From the NCBI RefSeq assembly GCF_003575965.1, contig NZ_QWJJ01000014.1, positions 86,912 to 150,911 of the forward strand: DNA of 64,000 nucleotides. Direction: 5' to 3'. The DNA comes from Pseudooceanicola sediminis (lineage in GTDB: Bacteria > Pseudomonadota > Alphaproteobacteria > Rhodobacterales > Rhodobacteraceae). Position 1 is the first letter of the stretch. Every line of letters begins with the position of its first letter. The notes under the pieces are model-generated. The model was not told where the DNA came from, did not search any database, and saw only the letters and a list, made by a program, of their open reading frames with translations. Shown piece after piece: positions 54,971 to 64,000 of the stretch. A program made the position numbers and the translations under genes.

Positions 54971-55036
54971 CGATGATCCTCCCTGCGGGGAAGGCTATTC
55001 CCGCAGGGTGAAATCGGCAACCGCAATGCGGACTTT

Positions 55037-55903
55037 TTACGCCACGTTTTCGAACCGCGCCTGCGGCGTCACGCCAAGGGCATGGCAGACATCGCGCGTC
55101 AGCTCAGGCTTGTTCAGCGTGTAGAAATGCAGGTTCTCGACGCCTTCGGACAGCAGACGATCGCACATTTCGGTGCACAGCGCGGTCGCCAGAAGATCGG
55201 CGCGACCGTCGCGGTCGGCCTTTTCAAACGCGTCGACCAGCGTGTCGGGGAAATGCGCGCCGCATCCGGCGGCAAACTTGCGCATGCCCTTCCAGTTCTC
55301 GATCGGCATGATGCCGGGGACGACGGGCTTGTCGATCCCCGCGCGGGCGCAGTCATCGCGAAAGCGCAGGAAGGTTTCGGTTTCAAAGAAGAACTGGGTG
55401 ATCGCCTCGTCCGCACCGGCCTGGAACTTGCGCTTGAGCCAGGCCACATCGGCGGCTGTGTCGGGGGATTCGGGGTGCGGTTCGGGGTAGGCCCCGACGC
55501 GGATGGTGAACTTGCCCTTGTCGGCCAGCGCCTCGACCAGCTCAACCGAATTGGCAAAGCCGCCGGGGTGAACGGAAAAGGCGCCCGCGCCCTTGGGGGG
55601 ATCGCCGCGCAGGGCGACCAGTTCGGTCACCCCGGCCGCGGCAAAGCTGTCGGCCACCGCAAGGGTTTCTTCGCGCGTGGCGTTGACACAGGTCAGATGC
55701 GCGGCGGTGTTCAGGCCCATGTGCTTGTGCAATGTCGCCACGGCATCGCGGGTCAGGTCGCGCGTGGTGCCGCCCGCGCCGTAGGTTACGGAAACGAAGC
55801 GCGGGGCGAGGGGGGAGAGAACCTGCACGGTATCCCAGAGCTTGAACGAAGCCTCGAGGTTCTTCGGCGGGAAAAATTCAAAGGAAACGGCGGGAACGGT
55901 CAT
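55037..55903 (-). CDS. metF: 5,10-methylenetetrahydrofolate reductase
   Basis: The 288-residue flavoprotein reduces methylenetetrahydrofolate to methyltetrahydrofolate for methionine synthesis. It opens VPAVSFEFFPPKN, with the catalytic glutamate in that first motif, SVTYGAGGTTRDLT, LVALRGDPPKGAG and VVPGIMPIENWKGMRKF. Length fits MetF. It is divergent from a metR-like regulator with phased TTCA sites between them. Confidence 0.95.
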   Translation of the reverse strand: MTVPAVSFEFFPPKNLEASFKLWDTVQVLSPLAPRFVSVTYGAGGTTRDLTRDAVATLHKHMGLNTAAHLTCVNATREETLAVADSFAAAGVTELVALRGDPPKGAGAFSVHPGGFANSVELVEALADKGKFTIRVGAYPEPHPESPDTAADVAWLKRKFQAGADEAITQFFFETETFLRFRDDCARAGIDKPVVPGIMPIENWKGMRKFAAGCGAHFPDTLVDAFEKADRDGRADLLATALCTEMCDRLLSEGVENLHFYTLNKPELTRDVCHALGVTPQARFENVA

Positions 55904-55949
55904 TGGAACAGCCTCATGTCAGTTGATCTCTTGTCGCAAAGGCGCTGAC

Positions 55950-55981
55950 ATGAGACAACTTCATAATATTCACGATCTTCA
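55950..55981. promoter_or_regulatory. MetR-type binding region: TGAG-N5-TTCA plus phased TTCA half-sites
   Basis: TGAGACAACTTCA (55951-55963) matches the MetR consensus TGAA-N5-TTCA with one mismatch. TTCA recurs at 55960, 55969 and 55978, exactly nine bases apart. The cluster lies in the 93-bp gap between divergent metF and metR, where autoregulated LysR control is expected. Confidence 0.6.
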
Positions 55982-55996
55982 TGAGTCCGAGACGAT

Positions 55997-56971
55997 ATGC
56001 ATATCGAGCTTCGCCACCTGCGCACGATCCGTGCGATTCACGAGGCAGGCGGTCTGGCCAAGGCCGCCGACCTGTTGCGCATCACGCAAAGCGCCTTGAG
56101 CCACCAGATCAAGGGGTTGGAAGACCAGGTCGGGATGGAGCTGTTCGGGCGGCGCACCAAGCCGATGCGCCTGTCCGCTGCCGGATTGCGCCTGTTGCGG
56201 GTGGCCGAGCGGGTGCTGCCCGAGATCGAGGCGCTGGAGGTGGAATTCGACAACCTGCGCGACGGCAGCGCGGGGCGGCTGCACATCGCCATCGAGTGCC
56301 ACGCCTGTTTCGAATGGCTGCTGCCGGTGCTGGAACTGTTCCGCCACACCTGGGCCGATGTCGATGTCGATATCCGCCCCGGCCTGGCCTTTACCGCCAT
56401 CGAGGCGCTGGAGCGCGAGACGGTGGACGTGGTGATCACCTCGGATCCCGAGGATATTCCGGGGATCACCTTCGCGCCGTTGTTCGATTATTCGCCGGTC
56501 TTCGTGGCGGCGGCGGGGCATCCGCTGGCCGATAAACCCTTTGTGGAACCACAAGATTTCCTGGGCGAGACGCTACTGACCTATCCGGTGGAGCGCAGCC
56601 GCCTTGACGTGTTCTCGATGTTGCTGGAGCCTGCGGGGATCGAGCCTGCGGCGATCCGCAGGGTCGAGCTGACCGAGGTGATCCTGTTGCTGGTGGCCTC
56701 GGGGCGGGGGGTGACGGTGCTGCCCGACTGGGTGCTGCGAGAGGTGAAATATCATTCCGACTACATCACCAAGCCGATCACCGAAAAGGGGCTGACGCGG
56801 CGCATGTTCGCGGCCTGTCGCGCCGAGGATACGGCCAAGCCGTTCATGGCGCATTTCACCCGGCTGGCGCGGACCGAAGCGGTCAAGTTGCAACGCGGAC
56901 GACAGGCTGTCGCCGTCGCGCCGCCACCGCTGTTGACAGCGACGGCAGGGCGGGGCCAAACCACGCCCTAG
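55997..56971 (+). CDS. metR: LysR-family regulator, MetR-like
   Basis: The 324-residue protein has a LysR N-terminal helix-turn-helix (GGLAKAADLLRITQSALSHQ, about residues 19-38) and a C-terminal ligand-binding domain (GRLHIAIECHACFEWLLPVL). The CHACFEWL segment is typical of MetR, which responds to homocysteine. It is divergent from metF. A Pro/Ala-rich tail of ~25 residues is longer than usual. Confidence 0.9.
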   Translation: MHIELRHLRTIRAIHEAGGLAKAADLLRITQSALSHQIKGLEDQVGMELFGRRTKPMRLSAAGLRLLRVAERVLPEIEALEVEFDNLRDGSAGRLHIAIECHACFEWLLPVLELFRHTWADVDVDIRPGLAFTAIEALERETVDVVITSDPEDIPGITFAPLFDYSPVFVAAAGHPLADKPFVEPQDFLGETLLTYPVERSRLDVFSMLLEPAGIEPAAIRRVELTEVILLLVASGRGVTVLPDWVLREVKYHSDYITKPITEKGLTRRMFAACRAEDTAKPFMAHFTRLARTEAVKLQRGRQAVAVAPPPLLTATAGRGQTTP

Positions 56972-57036
56972 CGCCCCTTGGCAAGCGGGGCCTTGCGGTC
57001 TATACGCGCAACTTCGGATCAAGGAGCCGCCCCAAC

Positions 57037-57825
57037 ATGCCCTTTAGTGCCAACCTCAACATCATGCTCAAGGCCGCCCGCAAGGCTGGCCGCAGCCTTG
57101 TGAAGGACTTCCGCGAAGTCGAGAACCTTCAGGTTTCGATGAAGGGGGCAGGCGATTTCGTCAGCCGCGCCGATCTCGCGGCGGAAAAGATCCTCAAGGA
57201 GGAACTGATGGGGGCCCGCCCGACCTATGGCTGGCTGGCCGAGGAAGGTGGCGAGGAACCCGGTGAAGATCCGACACGGCGCTGGATCGTCGATCCGTTG
57301 GACGGCACGACGAACTTTTTGCACGGTCTGCCCCATTGGGCGGTGTCGATCGGCCTGGAGCACAAGGGCCAGATCATCGCCGGCGTGGTCTATGACGCCG
57401 CGAAGGACGAGATGTTCCTGGCCGAGAAGGGCGAAGGTGCCTGGATGAACGAGAGCCGCATTCGCGCCTCGGGCCGGATCAAGATGATCGAGTCGATCTA
57501 TGCGACAGGCCTGCCCTTTGCCGGACGTGCCGATCTGCCGGCGACCCTGCAGGATCTGGCACGGCTGCTGCCGGCCTGTGCCGGTGTGCGCCGCTGGGGC
57601 GCGGCATCGCTGGACATGGCCTATGTCGCGGCGGGTCGCTATGACGGGTTCTGGGAGCGCCGCCTGAAGCCATGGGACATGGCCGCGGGCATCGTCATCG
57701 TGCGGGAGGCGGGTGGGTTCATCCAGCCGCTGAACCCCGAGGGCGACATCCTGGCCGATGGCGAAGTGATCTGTGCCAACGAGCCGCTGTTCGACAAGTT
57801 TTCCAAGATCATCCGCAACAGCTGA
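57037..57825 (+). CDS. Inositol monophosphatase-family protein (SuhB-like)
   Basis: The 262-residue phosphatase has the metal-binding WLAEEGGEEPGED acidic region, the signature IVDPLDGTTNFLHGLPHWAV (about residues 86-105) and KPWDMAAGIVIVREAGG near the C-terminus. Substrates of the family include inositol-1-phosphate and related sugar phosphates; SuhB also assists ribosome maturation in E. coli. It starts after AAGGAG. Confidence 0.93.
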   Translation: MPFSANLNIMLKAARKAGRSLVKDFREVENLQVSMKGAGDFVSRADLAAEKILKEELMGARPTYGWLAEEGGEEPGEDPTRRWIVDPLDGTTNFLHGLPHWAVSIGLEHKGQIIAGVVYDAAKDEMFLAEKGEGAWMNESRIRASGRIKMIESIYATGLPFAGRADLPATLQDLARLLPACAGVRRWGAASLDMAYVAAGRYDGFWERRLKPWDMAAGIVIVREAGGFIQPLNPEGDILADGEVICANEPLFDKFSKIIRNS

Positions 57826-57849
57826 GCCTTTGCCCGCCATGGCGAGGTT

Positions 57850-57869
57850 GCCTCCGGCGGGGGTATTTG
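57850..57869 (+). repeat. Intergenic GCCTCCGGCGGGGGTATTTG element, copy 2
   Basis: GCCTCCGGCGGGGGTATTTG, followed by AGGCCAGATGAGAG, matches the element at 47562-47581 apart from one base. It begins 25 bases after the stop of the inositol phosphatase gene, the same post-stop setting as copy 1. Confidence 0.55.
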
Positions 57870-57980
57870 AGGCCAGATGAGAGAGCCCGGTCGCGCGATA
57901 TGCGCGGCCGTTTCGCGTTTGTGGTCGTGGGATGTGGTGGGGGCTGGTCTGTGGTCCTGCTTGCTGCGGTCTTGTTTGCG

Positions 57981-58748
57981 TCAGTCCTGCCGGCGTTGGT
58001 CCTGCTTGTTACGGGGGACGCAGGGGATGTGGCTGCGGGATACTCGATAGGCTGCGTCGGGATGTGGCGGCTTGCCGTGATGGCGGCTCCAGAACCTTGG
58101 CCCGCCGCGCCGCACGAACAGGGGCAGGGTGAGTACCAGGCCGAGGAGGAAGCCGCCGGCATGTGCCCAGTAGGCGACGCCGCCTGTCGTCGGGTCGGAG
58201 CCTAGTCCATTGAAGAGTTGCAGCGCGAACCACAGCCCCAGCATGATCCAGGCCGGAACCGTGATACTGCGGAAGAAGACGAGCAGGATCACCAGGATAT
58301 CGACCCGAGCGCGGGGGAACAGCAAGAGGTAGCCACCGAGGACGCCGGCGATGGCGCCCGAGGCTCCGACGGTGGGAACCGTGGAGGCGGGGGCGGCGAG
58401 AGCCTGGGCAAGGCCTGCGCCCACGCCTGCGGCGAGATAGAAGCCGAGAAACCCGAGGTGGCCCATCTCATCTTCGAGGTTGTCACCGAAAATCCACAGA
58501 AAGAGCATGTTTCCGGCCAGGTGCAGCATCCCGCCGTGCAGGAACATCGACGTGATCAGTGTCAGCGGCGCCTCACCGGCCGTGATGTTCGCCGGGATCA
58601 TCGCATGGCGGGCAAAGATGGTCTGGATGCTGCGCGGGTCCTGAAACGGGCCGACATAGTAAAAGAACACCAGAATATTGAGGAAAATCAGCGCGTAGGT
58701 GACCAGGGGGCGGCCAAGGGAGGGGTTGTGATCGCGCAGGGGGAACAT
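57981..58748 (-). CDS. Rhomboid-family intramembrane serine protease
   Basis: The 255-residue membrane protein starts MFPLRDHNPSLGRPLVTYAL. It has the catalytic serine in VGASGAIAGVLGGYLL (GxSG, about residue 131), the catalytic histidine in YWAHAGGFLLGLVL (about residue 205) and the HGGMLHLAGNMLFLWIFG oxyanion-helix region. It cleaves membrane helices. A basic, His/Arg-rich cytoplasmic tail follows the last helix. Confidence 0.93.
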   Translation of the reverse strand: MFPLRDHNPSLGRPLVTYALIFLNILVFFYYVGPFQDPRSIQTIFARHAMIPANITAGEAPLTLITSMFLHGGMLHLAGNMLFLWIFGDNLEDEMGHLGFLGFYLAAGVGAGLAQALAAPASTVPTVGASGAIAGVLGGYLLLFPRARVDILVILLVFFRSITVPAWIMLGLWFALQLFNGLGSDPTTGGVAYWAHAGGFLLGLVLTLPLFVRRGGPRFWSRHHGKPPHPDAAYRVSRSHIPCVPRNKQDQRRQD

Positions 58749-58789
58749 CGCGCGACGCTGGGGGCAAAGACGCGCGAGGTCAAGCGGCT

Positions 58790-59392
58790 TTGGGGACGGT
58801 TTCGGGCCGTCTTTACACGGCGGGTTTTGCGGCTATGGTCCGGTGGCTTGTCCCTGGCGGGCCGCATGCGGTGCGCCAGGGACAAGCGGTGGCCCGCACG
58901 AGCAATATCTCTGGTCGGCAGGTAGGTAATTGGTGGGAGTGGTTCTTCGGGCCGTTCTCGGCCTACTCGGACAAGTTCATCGCGCTCGACATTCCGGGGC
59001 CGACGCGGCGCATCCTGATCGCCTTGCAGGGCGGGCAGGTGCGCCTGGGCGAGATCTTCCTCGGCACCAGTTTCCCGATTGGCGCGGCCCAGGTGGGCAG
59101 CACCGAAGGGCGCTCGATCAGCGGCAGCCGCTACAGCTTCAACGACTATGGCAGTCTGACCCTGGCCAAGGGCCCGACGCGGGTCGAGATGGATTATCGC
59201 GTCGTCGCCTCGAAGAGCCTCTGGGACCAGACCAAGCCCGAGCTGGATCGCAACTCCGGCTCGCTGGTGGCGGCCATCGGCTCCACCACGCGCGCCTCCA
59301 GCGTGCAGTTCGGCATCCTCGGCCCCGTCAAGTGGGGCGAGGACCTGCCGGATGAGTACGAATATTCCTTCACCATCACAGGAGTGGCCTGA
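58790..59392 (+). pseudogene. Phage tail protein, truncated 5' end
   Basis: The open frame holds 200 codons. The convincing part begins near 58925 (GNWWEWFFGPFSAYSDKFIAL) and continues with LQGGQVRLGEIFLGTSF and ends SFTITGVA. It reads as the C-terminal part of a phage structural protein that contacts tail fibre. The first ~45 codons have different character and span the inverted repeat, so the original 5' portion is probably lost. The stop overlaps the next ATG (TGATG), a phage-style coupling. Confidence 0.55.
58846..58887. repeat. Perfect 14-bp inverted repeat with inner palindrome
   Basis: GCTTGTCCCTGGCG (58846-58859) is repeated inverted as CGCCAGGGACAAGC (58874-58887). The 14-base loop itself holds the 10-bp palindrome CCGCATGCGG. 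The structure lies about 100 bases upstream of the rhomboid start and at the edge of the phage-like region, inside the apparent reading frame of a truncated phage gene. Confidence 0.75.
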
Positions 59393-59747
59393 TGCCCGTT
59401 CCCGAGTTTACCCCCTTCACCGGCCTTTTGCCCTCCGAAGGCGATCCCGCCACCTTTCCGCCGCGTGCACAGGCGCTGTTTGAATGGTTTACGGTCACCG
59501 GCGCGCCGCTGATATTCTTGGGGCGGCTGGCGGTGCGGGGCTGCGCTATTCCAACACGCCCGCCTATCCGATGGCGGTTCATGCCAGCAACAAGCTGATC
59601 GTCGGGGCGACACCCTCCAGCGTCATTACCTCGAATGCCAAGGTCGCGCTGGCCGAGATCCATGACGTCCTGTTCACCGACGCAGAGGTCGCGCAGGCCT
59701 ATCAGCAGATCAAGGGGATCATGGCCGAAGAGGGGGTCTCAGTCTGA
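59392..59747 (+). pseudogene. Phage tail-fibre protein, internally deleted and frameshifted
   Basis: The start MPVPEFTPFTGLLPSEGDPA is typical of tail-fibre N-termini in Rhodobacteraceae prophages and overlaps the upstream stop. Around 59510-59540 the protein-like reading moves to another frame, which continues SNTPAYPMAVHASNKLIVGA through DAEVAQAYQQIKGIMAEEGV to a stop at 59747. The middle of the protein is missing. The result looks like N- and C-terminal ends joined by a deletion. Confidence 0.6.
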
Positions 59748-59755
59748 GACCCCCT
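59731..59755 (+). terminator. Perfect 12-bp palindrome over the tail-fibre stop codon
   Basis: AGGGGGTCTCAG and CTGAGACCCCCT flank a single central T and cover the last codons and stop of the tail-fibre remnant. It would fold into a strong hairpin in RNA. There is no T-run, so termination would be imperfect. Confidence 0.5.
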
Positions 59756-59759
59756 GACC

Positions 59760-59921
59760 TCACATCGCGTCGAAGTCGCGGGAGTCATATTCCTCCCCCT
59801 GAAACGGCCGATATTGCCATGCGCCCTTGTGCCAGCGTCGCATCCGCTTCGTGCCGAACCACGACATGTGCGGATGCCATTCTGAATAAGATTGTGAACG
59901 TTTGGCCTGCCACCTGGCCAT
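59760..59921 (-). CDS. Possible small phage-region protein (53 aa)
   Basis: The frame MARWQAKRSQSYSEWHPHMS... SRDFDAM encodes a basic, Trp-rich, 53-residue protein, with a possible upstream GTG start (IRRLMARW). It lies between the tail-fibre remnant and the holin-like gene. No family recognised and no clear ribosome site, so it may be a remnant. Confidence 0.35.
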   Translation of the reverse strand: MARWQAKRSQSYSEWHPHMSWFGTKRMRRWHKGAWQYRPFQGEEYDSRDFDAM

Positions 59922-60343
59922 CAGACGGCGGATCACGCGGCGTCAGAGTGTGACTGAGGTGTGTCCGATTGGGAGACAGCGTGCCCCCTCATGTCAAGCG
60001 CGCGTCTGATCGTGAATTTTGGCATTATATTCTCCCCTTGGGCCGCAACATCACAGTTTGTCACTGAACTGTCACTAGAAAATTCTTCCTTCGGTTGAAA
60101 TCGGGGGAGAAGCAGAACGCAATCACGGGTGGCAGGAAGCCCGATCCCGCCACGGGTCCCGCTCGCACCAGTGGGCGACGTCATGGCTGTCAGGTCTCTT
60201 GCTCTCCATGCCGGTGTGCAGTCCCGGCCTGCGGATTGGCAGACCTATACGGAGGTCGCCGCGCGACCCGCGTATCACTTCACCGGTGAGGATGGCGCAA
60301 GCCTTACCGCCCAGACACTCAGCAGACACTTGGGGGCATGTGC
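59922..60343. other. Phage-region gap, no supported gene
   Basis: About 420 bases with lower GC in the first half (for example 60000-60110) and no frame with a protein likeness. A cgcaagcc-rich region leads into the holin-like gene. Confidence 0.4.
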
Positions 60344-60655
60344 ATGTCAGATCAGCAGAGGCTGGAACGGATCGAACAGACGCTCGACAAGCTGTCTGAC
60401 GTGGTGGTCCAGCAGGCCCGGATGCAGGAACAGCTGGTGACGCTGTTCAAGCGGATGGAGCGCTATGACCGGGACCAGGGCCTGCTGGCCCGCAAGCATG
60501 AGCAAGAGCAGGCGCTCCTGACGGAGAAAGTGGTGCTGCTGGAACGTCTCAGCATCGGACGCGGGATCTTCTTTCGTGCGCTCGACAAGGCGATCTGGCT
60601 GATCGCGGGCTGTCTGGTCGCGGCGGCAGCGACGCTTCTGGACCGACCGCCCTGA
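60344..60655 (+). CDS. Holin-like phage protein (coiled coil plus one membrane helix)
   Basis: The 103-residue protein starts at ATG 60344, with GGGGG at good spacing; an ATG two codons earlier is too close to it. It has a long charged coiled coil (QRLERIEQTLDKLSDVVVQQ onward) and a C-terminal membrane helix (AIWLIAGCLVAAAATLL). Proteins of this design precede endolysin genes in many alphaproteobacterial prophages and may act in lysis. Here it directly precedes an interrupted endolysin. Confidence 0.65.
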   Translation: MSDQQRLERIEQTLDKLSDVVVQQARMQEQLVTLFKRMERYDRDQGLLARKHEQEQALLTEKVVLLERLSIGRGIFFRALDKAIWLIAGCLVAAAATLLDRPP

Positions 60656-60686
60656 TACACCCGGCCCGCGCAACACCCTGACCCAA

Positions 60687-60713
60687 GGCCCCGGAAACTC
60701 CGGGGCCTTTTGC
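60687..60713 (+). terminator. Rho-independent terminator between holin-like and endolysin genes
   Basis: GGCCCCGG AAACT CCGGGGCC is followed by TTTTGCTTT: a perfect 8-bp GC stem with a five-base loop and T-rich tail. Confidence 0.85.
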
Positions 60714-60729
60714 TTTGAAGGAGACAGAA

Positions 60730-60822
60730 ATGCGGAAGAACTATCAGCTTATCCAATCCTGGATCGGCCTGTCGGAGGGGGGCTATGTGCATCATCCCGA
60801 CGATCCTGGCGGCGCGACGAAT
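60730..60822 (+). pseudogene. GH108-type phage endolysin, cut after 31 codons
   Basis: MRKNYQLIQSWIGLSEGGYV, ending HHPDDPGGATN, is the N-terminus of a family 108 muramidase, including the catalytic-glutamate SEGGY motif. GGAG lies seven bases before the ATG. After codon 31 the sequence changes to insertion-sequence transposase in a different frame, so no functional lysozyme is made. The lost remainder is not visible in the window. Confidence 0.75.
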
Positions 60823-62169
60823 CTACGAGTTCTCGATCGAGACGCATGTCCCGGCCGACCACATGCTCCGGGCGGTGAACCGGTTTGTCGATCTGGCCGG
60901 GATCCGGAAGCATCTGGCACCGTTTTACAGCTCCACCGGGCGACCGTCGGTTGACCCCGAGCTGATGATCCGGATGCTGCTGGTTGGCTACATCATGGGT
61001 ATCCGTTCGGAACGTCGGCTTTGCGAAGAGGTCCATCTTAACCTCGCCTACCGTTGGTTCTGCCGCCTCGATCTGACCGACCCGGTGCCAGACCATTCGA
61101 GCTTCTCCAAGAACCGGCACGGCCGCTTCCGTGACAGCGATCTGCTGCGCCATCTGTTCGAGACGGTGGTTGCCCGCTGCATCGCGGAGGGATTGGCAAG
61201 CGGCCAGCGATTTGCGGCAGACGCCAGCATCATTCAAGCAGACGCGAACCGGCAGAACTCGACACAAAAGGCGGATTGGAAACCGGACAAGATCGATCCC
61301 GAGGAAGCGCCGCGGGCGGTAAGGGAATACCTGGCAACGCTCGATGATGCGGCGTTCGGCGCGGCCAGCCCGGTCGAGCCGAAGTTCACCTCGCATTCCG
61401 ATCCTGCGTCGCAATGGAGCGGGGCACGGGGTGGTCCAGCCTATTTCGCCTATTCCACCAATTACTTGATCGATACCGACAGCGGCGTGATCCTCGTCGT
61501 GGAGGCCACACGCTCGATCCGCCAGGCCGAGGTTGGATCGGTGCGGACGATGATCGATCGTGTGAGCGATACCTTCGCCCTACAACCAGAACGCCTGATC
61601 GCCGACACTGCCTACGGCACGGGTGAGATGCTGGACTGGCTGGATCGTCAACGCGGGATCGCGCCTCATATCCCGGTGTTTGACAAGTCGGCGCGCCGAG
61701 ATGGAACATTCGAACGTGCTGACTTCACCTACGATGCCGAGCAGGACACCTACACCTGTCCGGGCGGCAAAGTACTGAAGCAAAACCGCCGGGCCTTCAG
61801 GACGGCCAGAGAGCAGAAGCCTGACGAGAATGGGATGCTGCGCTACCGGGCCATCAAGGCCGACTGCGATGTCTGCGAACTGAAAACACGCTGCTGCCCG
61901 AAGGCGCCTGCACGCAAGGTGCTCCGGTCGATCTACGAGCCATCCCGCGATCGGGCCCGTGCGATCGCTCAGACCACGGAATACGCGATATCCTGCAAAC
62001 TGAGGAAGAAGGTTGAGATGCTGTTCGCCCTTCTGAAGCGGATCCTGGGCTGAACCGTCTTCGATTGCGTGGCCCTCTCGGCGCGCGCGACGACTTCCAC
62101 CTCGCAGCCACCGCCCAGAACCTCCGGAAGCTCGCAAAGCTCCTGCCGCCACCACAAACCGCGTGCTGA
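60785..62169 (+). pseudogene. IS1182-type transposase, N-terminally truncated and frameshifted
   Basis: From about 60823 the frame matches IS1182-family transposases: YEFSIETHVPADHMLRAVNR, ELMIRMLLVGYIMGIRSERR, LCEEVHLNLAYRWFCRL and RFAADASIIQADA, with the late KVEMLFALLKRILG. The usual first ~12 residues and start are missing, replaced by endolysin sequence read out of frame from 60785. After ILG (62050) one base appears lost: the normal tail LNRLRLRGPLGARDDFHLAA continues in the +1 frame to a stop at 62169. Confidence 0.85.
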
Positions 62170-62250
62170 CCGGGGACAGATCTGGACGCGCTTAATCTCG
62201 CAAAACAATCAACGGGGATGCTGGGGCGAGTTTTTCAACGAAATAAGCCC
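60823..62250 (+). mobile_element. Damaged IS1182-family insertion sequence
   Basis: It spans the transposase remnant and a right-end flank with gcgagtttttcaac at about 62227, a terminal pattern I associate with this IS type. The left terminal repeat and the transposase start are absent, so the left boundary at 60823 is a deletion or recombination junction. The right boundary is an estimate. Confidence 0.65.
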
Positions 62251-62395
62251 TGAACGAACCCAAGGCACCAGACGCCGACTTGCGATAGCTGACCTTCGCT
62301 GCGCGGGTCGCGAACTAGTAAGATGCGGGACGAAGTGTGAATTCGCTGCGGCTGAGCCAATGGCTGCTTTCAGAGTTCCTTCGTTCAGAAGCGGC

Positions 62396-62698
62396 CTAAG
62401 ACAGCGAGGCCGCCCAGCCCAAAAAATCCTCAAAGAGGAAACGAACGCCCTCGTCTGGAATTACCCAGTCGCCCTTCGACTCTTTAAACCATAGTGAGCC
62501 TAGATCAGTCTCGTTGTTTGCTAAGAGTTTCTCGCAGTATGTGACTAATTCCCGCACTGCTTGATCACCGTATCGCATGGCGAAACTCTCATAGAGCTCC
62601 CTGCGCCCGTGCGGGGTGTCGGCCCAACCAGGATGAACGACATCAAGGTCCTGATGAAATTGCAGGGTGAAGTCATAGAATGATTGTGGGGGCTTCAT
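62396..62698 (-). CDS. Putative immunity protein to the RNase A-like toxin
   Basis: The 100-residue acidic protein starts MKPPQSFYDFTLQFHQDLDV and ends in FEDFLGWAASLS. Its ATG lies one base after the toxin stop, so the two are co-translated. Small acidic proteins of about this size directly follow toxins in contact-dependent inhibition and other polymorphic toxin loci. The QFHQDLDV opening resembles that of CdiI-type immunity proteins, a weak resemblance. Base composition is lower in GC than the surrounding chromosome. Function is inferred from position. Confidence 0.65.
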   Translation of the reverse strand: MKPPQSFYDFTLQFHQDLDVVHPGWADTPHGRRELYESFAMRYGDQAVRELVTYCEKLLANNETDLGSLWFKESKGDWVIPDEGVRFLFEDFLGWAASLS

Positions 62699-62699
62699 A

Positions 62700-63749
62700 T
62701 CAGTCAACCCTCGGATATGATGTGACAATGACAAAACCGTCTGGCATTTCAGGTGCGTGCCGAATGAACGTTCCGACATCAAAGGTCCGACGCACCCGGA
62801 CCGGTGAGGAAGTCCTTTGAGTTATCTTGTAAGCCTCTGTTCCTGTAACGGAATTGAATGTGCTTGTAACAAACGCATCTGGAAGCTCCCCACGTGCAAC
62901 AGCGTTTACGATTTCAGAGTTCTGAGCAAGATTGGAATTCGTAAGCTTTTGGGCCGCTTCAAGGGATGGAAACGTCCCGTGCCGCCAACGATAAAGGCTA
63001 AAGAAAAGCGTTCTCCCGCGCGGGGTGCTAACCGATCCGATTAGGAAGGCTTCACTTTTTCCGACATGCAGGGCAATGGTGTGACCACCGCCCGCCTCAT
63101 GGACTGAAAGGTCTTGTGAAGGAATGCTGCCATCGGAACCGGCTAGAATTACGTTGCTTTGAGGTGCTGGCGCAATCGGTTCCGCATAACATCTACAGTT
63201 ATGCGCTTCGCCAGGATGCCCGCTCGCCGGGGGATCATCCCAACGAAACACTAGGTCGTCATATTCTGCATGACTATCGCGCACCTTGGCATCGTCCTGC
63301 GAGCGCCAAATATACCTCTCAATGCCAAGGTCTTCTTGCCGGAGCGGATTGATCAGCCCGGCGAAGGCCCGCAAAAGGCGTTCTTCCATAGCCATTCGAA
63401 GCGGTCGAAGCCGTTGCGGGTGATTTTGATATTCGCTGAATATGCTCTCAAGCCGCGCGTCCCATGCGTTTAGCGCTTCCACCTTTGCATCGGACACATC
63501 TCGCAAATCGGATGCCGAAACAGTTGGCACTGTGTCAGGCGGCGTCAGCGTGCTCAGCAGCATCAGGGTGTTTTCGGAAATCGCCTGATCGAGGCTTTCG
63601 CTGAAATCGGCCCGTAAAGCTGAATAGTTTGGGAAAGTCGATTTGAGCGATAGCCCCGCGCGGCGACCAACGATGCGGCCATCGCGCCGTGCGAGAACAT
63701 AATAGCCGTTGCCGCCGTGTCTAAGGAAGTCGCTGAAACTGTGTTGCAT
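62700..63749 (-). CDS. Phage head-morphogenesis / RNase A-like toxin fusion protein
   Basis: The 349-residue protein starts at ATG 63749 after GGGAGG. Residues ~1-140 are a helical region. Residues ~143-191 hold the SPP1 gp7/Mu F head-morphogenesis motif: YIWRSQDDAKVRDSH, VFRWDDPP, then GHPGEAHNCRCYAEPI. Residues ~215-349 match the RNase A-like bacterial toxin domain of CdiA C-termini: HEAGGGHTIALHVGKSEAFL, with H228, and a C-terminal IVTSYPRVD with T343 and Y345. At position 239, where the family has an arginine (LLAR), this protein has Ser. GC content is lower than the chromosome's. The immunity-like gene follows. Confidence 0.8.
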   Translation of the reverse strand: MQHSFSDFLRHGGNGYYVLARRDGRIVGRRAGLSLKSTFPNYSALRADFSESLDQAISENTLMLLSTLTPPDTVPTVSASDLRDVSDAKVEALNAWDARLESIFSEYQNHPQRLRPLRMAMEERLLRAFAGLINPLRQEDLGIERYIWRSQDDAKVRDSHAEYDDLVFRWDDPPASGHPGEAHNCRCYAEPIAPAPQSNVILAGSDGSIPSQDLSVHEAGGGHTIALHVGKSEAFLIGSVSTPRGRTLFFSLYRWRHGTFPSLEAAQKLTNSNLAQNSEIVNAVARGELPDAFVTSTFNSVTGTEAYKITQRTSSPVRVRRTFDVGTFIRHAPEMPDGFVIVTSYPRVD

Positions 63750-63937
63750 GAAACCTCCCGGCAAGTGTGGAACAGGTTCTATTCACAATTGGTAAAGAAA
63801 GCCCAACATCACCGTTCGCAACGCTCTAGAGGAAAGCAACTCACTCCGCTCGCGTCAGAACCGGACATTCATGCGTTTCGCAGCATCGGTTACTCGGGCT
63901 CAAAGCCGCTGACGTTGCCTCCAGGAGCTAATCCAGT
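63750..63937. other. Gap between toxin gene and IS3-type element
   Basis: This 190-bp AT-richer stretch contains the toxin promoter region. A plus-strand frame across it lacks a family or ribosome site. Confidence 0.4.
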
Positions 63938-64000
63938 TTGAGATAGACTCTGGCCCCACCGAAAGGACCAGAGATGAAACGCAGCAGATTTACCGAAGAC
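63938..64000 (+). mobile_element. Left end of an IS3-family insertion sequence (runs off the window)
   Basis: TTTGAGATAGACTCTGGCCC resembles an IS3 terminal repeat (TGA-starting). A CTCTGG (63948-63953)/CCAGAG (63968-63973) inverted repeat lies just before the first gene. The rest lies beyond the window, so the class is inferred from the first codons. Confidence 0.6.
63974..64000 (+). CDS. IS3-family transposase OrfA, first nine codons
   Basis: The nine codons MKRSRFTED match the start of many IS3-family OrfA proteins (MKRSRFTE...). AAAGGACCAGAG precedes the ATG. The gene continues beyond 64000. Confidence 0.65.

Follow-up and report, generated by a model that had tools for sequence, protein, structure and literature searches.

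Toxin and immunity genes at the locus

The window, which is the whole stretch of 64,000 nucleotides that was analyzed, carries on its minus strand a gene for a MuF-type toxin and, directly behind it, a gene for a small immunity protein. The coordinates of both genes, their domains, and the surrounding features are summarized in Table 1. The toxin gene starts with the ATG at 63749, and its TGA ends at 62700. As the earlier note had described, the 100-residue gene follows after a single base (62699), with its ATG at 62698 and its end at 62396.

Table 1. Features of the toxin locus and its borders (positions are those of the window; gene coordinates of the pair include the stop codon)
Feature	Position	Strand	Basis
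IS1182-family transposase, beside the cassette and not part of it	60785..62053	+	NF033551, 358.5 bits (cut-off 270)
Largest extent of the discrete unit common to the stand-alone copies	62278..63907		blastn of the window stretch with 28 loci
3' (right) cassette end, other half of the dispersed repeat (AGCAGCCATTGG ... GCAGCGAA ... CTTCGTCC)	62278..62375	-	end alignment, nhmmer
Immunity gene, 100 aa	62396..62698	-	starts one base after the toxin stop
MuF-RNase A polymorphic toxin gene, 349 aa	62700..63749	-	ORF list, Pfam, full-length homologues with 63–81% identity
RNase A-like toxin domain, residues 222–346 (predicted activity)	62712..63086	-	Pfam PF18431, alignment with PDB 5e3e_B
Phage_Mu_F domain, residues 115–188	63186..63407	-	Pfam PF04233, phrog_324
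5' (left) cassette end, half of the dispersed palindromic repeat (GAGCCC ... GATGCTGCG ... GAATGTC)	63835..63913	-	end alignment, nhmmer

The N-terminal half of the toxin matched Phage_Mu_F (PF04233) with an E-value of 2.6e-12 and 47.9 bits, above the cut-off of 29.6, and phrog_324 (head morphogenesis) matched residues 133–198 (E 1.2e-26). PHROG head families covered residues ~129–198, and TIGR01641 (SPP1 gp7) reached 39.1 bits, just below its cut-off of 39.65. Thus, the MuF carrier proposed in the earlier note was recovered by the profile search, and the window toxin possesses the N-terminal MuF domain (PF04233) required of MuF polymorphic toxins. Full-length matches with 63–81% identity were found in other genomes and in viral contigs, and one further locus (L020) holds a broken toxin copy with a segment of 90% identity. 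As the MuF-RNase A architecture recurs in this way, it is neither a chance arrangement nor a local fusion. When phage records were searched with the toxin, 528 matched and none had a place covering 80% of the query, residues 11–203 being the most that was covered among the 20 matches listed of the 528. Similarly, 24 plasmid records matched, none of them covering >80% of the query.

The C-terminal half matched RNAse_A_bac (PF18431; E 2.6e-9, 38.3 bits, cut-off 27), and a significant match therefore lies within residues 215–349, where the earlier note had placed an RNase A-type toxin domain. The best match of the toxin among PDB sequences was 5e3e_B (phmmer E 0.0046, residues 221–346), the CdiA toxin domain of Yersinia kristensenii; this CdiA-CT/CdiI complex (PDB 5E3E) was reportedly described by Batot et al. 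in 2017. Its active site consists of H175, R186, T276, and Y278, according to a review (PMC9086364). In the phmmer alignment, for which the residue numbering of the 5e3e chain was derived by hand, H228, T343, and Y345 of the toxin align with the catalytic H175, T276, and Y278, and the fourth catalytic residue, R186, aligns with S239. Among 18 sequences, some of them nearly identical, T343 was present in 18, H228 in 17, and Y345 in 16. Because these residues align and are conserved, RNase activity of the C-terminus is likely, with one catalytic residue differing. The structure prediction for the toxin from 18 sequences yielded a pLDDT of 46.2 and the model was not used; accordingly, the RNase A assignment rests on sequence. 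An RNase A domain with 41% identity and no MuF domain was observed in a plasmid record of Methylobacterium bullatum (L162, 5860–7094), followed by two similar small frames, neither of which is found by the window immunity protein at E 1.

The 100-aa protein has the same fold as 5e3e_A, with ~10% sequence identity. Its match to CdiI_2, which is assumed here to be the family of the Y. kristensenii protein, was sub-threshold (E 0.083, 14.1 bits, cut-off 26.7), so that the CdiI profile did not recover it. Since the sequence match was insufficient, the protein was identified by its fold and by its co-occurrence with the RNase-type toxin (26 of 26 loci, see below), which together uphold the cognate immunity proposed in the earlier note. 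The 100-aa protein is a predicted immunity protein with the CDI-immunity fold, and it would neutralize the toxin. No regulator domain was matched on it in Pfam or NCBIfam, its search against plasmid records gave a chance match only, and its search against PDB sequences gave no useful match.

Pairing of the two genes and exchange of the C-terminus

In total, 79 toxin-related loci were collected, of which 55 came from genomes and 24 from viral contigs, some being copies of one another. The match reached residue 347 or 349 in 26 loci, which were designated as the RNase type. By frame search, an immunity homologue lay directly behind the toxin in all 26 RNase-type loci, matching over 98–100 residues in each, and in none of the 53 others. 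Of 394 genomes drawn from the family, nine, the window's own genome included, matched the immunity profile, each time behind a MuF-RNase gene (9/9), and three of these MuF-RNase genes are split over two frames. The N-terminal MuF lineage was detected in 19 of the 394 genomes at E up to 1e-30. No single open frame covered residues 1–347 in 7 of the 19 RNase-type genome loci, and some copies are therefore decaying. The idea that the immunity gene outlives the toxin was considered and dropped, as the contrast was not significant once length was allowed for ((349/449)^7 ~0.17, calculated by hand).

The first 203 residues also recur with other ends, namely, EndoU in L028, CdiA_C in L072, and several unassigned ones. 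Linkage clustering divided 54 proteins into ten C-terminal groups, including one of shortened RNase-type frames. For most of the 57 rows that were listed, the stop adjoins or overlaps a small frame. One carrier with different C-terminal toxin domains and a small gene directly downstream are both features required of MuF polymorphic toxins. Strict pairing was thus observed together with C-terminal swapping. Judged by its domains, the window copy is a MuF polymorphic toxin whose C-terminus is of the RNase A type, and it would work like one.

A diverged MuF toxin annotated as an HNH endonuclease was noted on plasmid p3 of Pukyongiella litopenaei (L163, 2721–8195), followed by an SMI1/KNR4 gene and adjoining three consecutive tyrosine recombinase genes; neither of the cassette-end profiles described below matches there.

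As an alternative origin, we considered the capture of a CdiA-CT/CdiI module behind an unrelated frame, in which case the MuF half would be of no importance. The RNase A domain and the immunity protein do both match a CDI pair. Moreover, a second piece that clusters with MuF proteins lies behind the first toxin and small gene in L024 (10001–12939) and L031 (10055–12597), with a second copy of the small gene after it in L024, and orphan tails of this kind are known in other polymorphic toxins. However, the MuF half is the part conserved across different C-termini and is under purifying selection. Furthermore, the carrier is a 349-aa MuF protein rather than a CdiA-type carrier with CdiB, and no long exoprotein frame was found within 55000–64000. 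This alternative is consequently regarded as highly unlikely.

Position of the pair in phage relatives

In L028, TerL, portal, head protease, major head protein, phrog_7787, and phrog_6367 precede the toxin pair, which lies on the opposite strand, and the genes that follow it are tail terminator, minor tail protein, tape measure, and tail assembly. The phage genes were opposite in strand to MuF in 46 of the 46 loci with at least two phage genes, and MuF lay between phrog_6367 and the tail terminator in 33 of the 35 loci with both border genes (repeat copies included in both counts). The two exceptions were L048, with two overlapping and doubtful matches, and L073 (9815–10399), where MuF lies beyond phrog_7787. 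Because of the antisense strand and the site at the head/tail junction, the pair is an accessory insert even in the phages of this lineage, and not the MuF gene of a packaging module. One metagenome-assembled record, named Exiguobacterium profundum (L047), carries a prophage otherwise seen in Rhodobacterales, and its name may be wrong.

A group of stand-alone copies

No gene of the related phage family was found beside the toxin pair of the window. In the 394-genome draw, six of the nine RNase-type loci (own genome included) had none of ten phage genes, and the others had 2, 5, and 9. When 88 neighbor proteins of 15 loci were compared with PHROG, no terminase, portal, capsid, or tail family was found among the 25 families listed of the 56 matched; these were transporters, transposases, one integrase, a replication initiator, a partition protein, a protease, two enzymes, and 13 unnamed families. 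In a more sensitive test, two of these 15 loci, L019 and L013, had two and one phage genes, respectively. "Phage-free" status here refers to the genes of one phage family and to the PHROG scan of these 88 neighbors. The solo RNase-type MuF genes were placed by homology because the gene map did not call them.

In a tree of the first 200 residues, which was unrooted and had a bootstrap that was not fully settled, 15 rows labeled solo, the window included, formed one group with support of 95/95, comprising the RNase type and two other C-terminal kinds. A second group of 30 (92/97) comprised 22 phage rows, five unclear rows, and three rows that were labeled solo (L012, L013, and L030) yet fell inside this mostly-phage group. 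Relatives in this second group do lie in phage loci; the window's own group has no genes of the related phage family alongside.

Selection was estimated from dN/dS. Among the eight intact solo toxins, all 28 pairs were usable for the MuF half, with a median of 0.087; for the RNase half, 16 of the 28 pairs had a usable dS, and their median was 0.080. For the twelve solo immunity genes, the median was 0.085 (48 of 66 pairs). These ratios are imprecise owing to the high dS, but the MuF half is clearly not evolving by drift. Purifying selection on the solo MuF half was thus observed. The GC content of the eight solo genes was 53–55% in loci of 57–65%, which fits transfer.

A stand-alone toxin–antitoxin or abortive infection system was also weighed, in which the RNase would act in its own cell when a phage disturbs the immunity protein or when the cassette is lost, with MuF sensing capsid or portal. 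The one-base coupling of the genes, the solo genomic setting, and the selection on all parts agree with such a system. So does the antisense orientation in phages, which points to expression independent of the late operon. On the other hand, a single carrier with exchangeable C-termini is characteristic of polymorphic toxins that are delivered, the immunity protein has the fold known from CDI immunity, and no regulator domain was matched on it. A system of this type was therefore judged improbable.

Cassette ends and a dispersed repeat

DNA homology among the solo loci extended from ~150 bases before the toxin start to ~70 bases after the immunity stop and then ended; the ends of the unit were alike and the flanks unlike. 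Inspection by eye shows one palindromic repeat divided between the two ends, its right half forming the left end and its left half the right end. The nhmmer profiles of the ends matched the window, which was in the training set, at E 2e-19 (left) and 2.4e-20 (right). The left-end profile gave 19 further matches with E below 1e-3 in 1.3 Mb, of which two (L023 and L025) were cassette ends by a distance rule and 17 lay elsewhere. A core pattern from the other repeat half, which was taken from the same loci, matched 57 times, cassette ends included, versus 4 for the reversed control in 11 genomes of solo or phage loci, and 3 versus 0 times in the window's own genome. The first pattern used, GCRGCGAANNNCNGCTTYGAGCCC, had 0 matches in the own genome, and a shorter pattern had 4 there versus 1 for the control.

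Both ends were present in 23 of the 45 loci without phage genes, in neither of the two loci with one phage gene, and in none of the 35 with at least two. Among 29 phage-free loci outside the training sets, some of which are second views of training genomes, the left end was detected in 8 and the right end in 10. Shared unit ends and a group of stand-alone copies were observed. In L008 (Tateyamaria), the unit lies beside a gene that we presume from its sequence to be smpB, and the same region holds other genes in all five other Tateyamaria genomes searched, so that no clean empty site was found; none of the five has MuF at the equivalent site, and each has a relative elsewhere. Altogether, these results suggest that the cassette moves. 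Four further repeat copies within ~4.5 kb were observed in L009 (4611–8952), bordering single accessory genes that are presumably a GST-like gene, a DUF-like gene, and a small membrane protein with an HTH gene; the array looks like a series of repeat-bracketed cassettes.

Surroundings of the window copy

The cassette is flanked by the IS1182 element and, by eye, an IS3-like element. The IS1182 transposase frame stops early at 62053, and similar residues seem, by eye, to run on in another frame to 62155; the element may be inactive. The start of the IS3-type element (63941–64000, by eye) lies ~35 bases past the left end of the cassette, where the contig breaks. Beyond the IS1182 element, ~2 kb from the cassette, a phage-like remnant was observed at 58790–60655, with frames matching phrog_6278, phrog_4390, and, weakly, holin. 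A short frame near 60730, which we take to resemble an endolysin start, runs into the IS1182 element.

These surroundings bear on whether the pair is an ordinary prophage relic, left by the decay of a MuF-toxin prophage in each genome and without present function. Such a relic would account for the phage-like genes nearby (58790–59747, and weakly 60338–60655, by PHROG), the flanking insertion elements, the 7 of 19 genome loci without a full open frame, the three solo-labeled rows inside the mostly-phage tree group, and the one and two phage genes kept by L013 and L019. However, the fifteen solo-labeled rows form one supported group apart from the phage rows, dN/dS is ~0.08 for each of the three parts, independent decay would not produce the same ends of the unit at unrelated sites, and the L008 site lacks MuF in the five other Tateyamaria genomes. 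Decay alone thus appears unlikely. The suggestion of the earlier note that the module is prophage-borne fits the window copy poorly, because it groups with copies without related-phage genes and lies between the two insertion elements; the small remnant beyond the IS1182 element is the part of the surroundings in its favor.

The window's own genome carries two GTA_TIM genes, in the region C35:256944-267325 and at C45:142221-143117. The gene on C35 lies <10 kb from a portal gene, another portal gene is located on C45, and there is a weak third portal. These genes point to a gene transfer agent cluster along with another copy of the cluster's tail part, and particles of this agent are candidate helpers for the solo toxin.

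Comparison with known systems

MuF-toxin fusions were described in 2012 by Zhang et al. (PMC3482391), and in 2017 Jamet et al. (PMC5576092) designated them a polymorphic toxin family and noted the small genes that follow. Thus, the earlier note was right about the MuF carrier, the RNase A-type domain, and the immunity gene, but the pairing is not new as a kind. Jamet et al. assigned 96% of the muf genes that bacterial genomes carry to prophages or their remnants, and their abstract places MuF toxins "exclusively" in temperate phages (PMC5576092). Packaging in, or delivery with, virion heads is a published hypothesis, and according to PMC11699363 it is unknown what biological role MuF toxins have. 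Like the toxins in these papers, including Apk2 (PMC12226406) and Bxa (PMC11699363), the window copy has an N-terminal MuF domain, a variable C-terminal toxin, a small immunity gene, and phage relatives. Unlike those of Jamet et al., it and its group have no related-phage genes alongside, and in the phage relatives of its lineage the pair is antisense and usually between head and tail genes, and not in the packaging module. The reported location in phages or prophages with head genes does not apply to the 15 solo rows of the window group. Since this location has been reported but does not enter the domain definition, and since relatives in the other group of the tree occur in phage loci, the window copy was filed as a variant MuF polymorphic toxin.

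The Y. kristensenii CdiA-CT/CdiI pair shares with the window the RNase A-like domain with aligned H, T, and Y (PMC9086364) and the immunity fold, but the window carrier is MuF and not CdiA, R186 has no aligned arginine, and the immunity proteins share ~10% identity. In phage polyvalent proteins, as presented by Iyer et al. 2017 (PMC5512222), MuF is likewise fused to an effector enzyme presumed to reach the host interior; the window has one toxin with a dedicated immunity gene instead of a large multi-enzyme protein. "RNase A" occurs 0 times in the main text of Jamet et al. (PMC5576092), and in the literature consulted, no description of a MuF-RNase A protein or of solo MuF cassettes in Rhodobacterales was found. 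The pair is thus of a known kind, but it belongs to a chromosomal lineage that, unlike those reported, seems to have no virus around it.

Proposed explanation and implications

We consider it probable that the pair is a MuF-type toxin with its immunity protein, from a lineage shared with phages, and that it belongs to a chromosomal cassette group using the particles of other elements. The predicted action of the RNase A-like C-terminus is cleavage of RNA in a bacterial cytoplasm; the 100-aa protein would bind to this domain and mask the active site, as CdiI masks that of the Y. kristensenii toxin. The MuF half would be a carrier that evolved to load into the virion head next to the portal. In tailed phages, the pair is an accessory insert antisense to the late genes; in the chromosomal group that includes the window copy, it is a ~1.6 kb cassette ending in the halves of a dispersed repeat. 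As purifying selection acts on the MuF half even where it has no phage of its own, the solo toxin most likely still uses the carrier. From this selection, we infer that the solo toxin uses helper particles, being loaded through its MuF carrier into particles made by another resident element, and the immunity protein would protect carriers and their kin. A more specific reading is that of a phage-free guild of MuF toxins that rides the particles of others, such as a gene transfer agent or a helper phage, and brings the RNase to cells without immunity, its cassette moving between dispersed palindromic repeats with ends that would rebuild one repeat in a circle; this reading is quite doubtful.

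A head-type domain under selection without its own phage raises the questions of what MuF does and whose particles it uses. The gene transfer agent genes of the host make the question of helper particles testable, and the toxin–immunity pair offers a clean set for cell assays.
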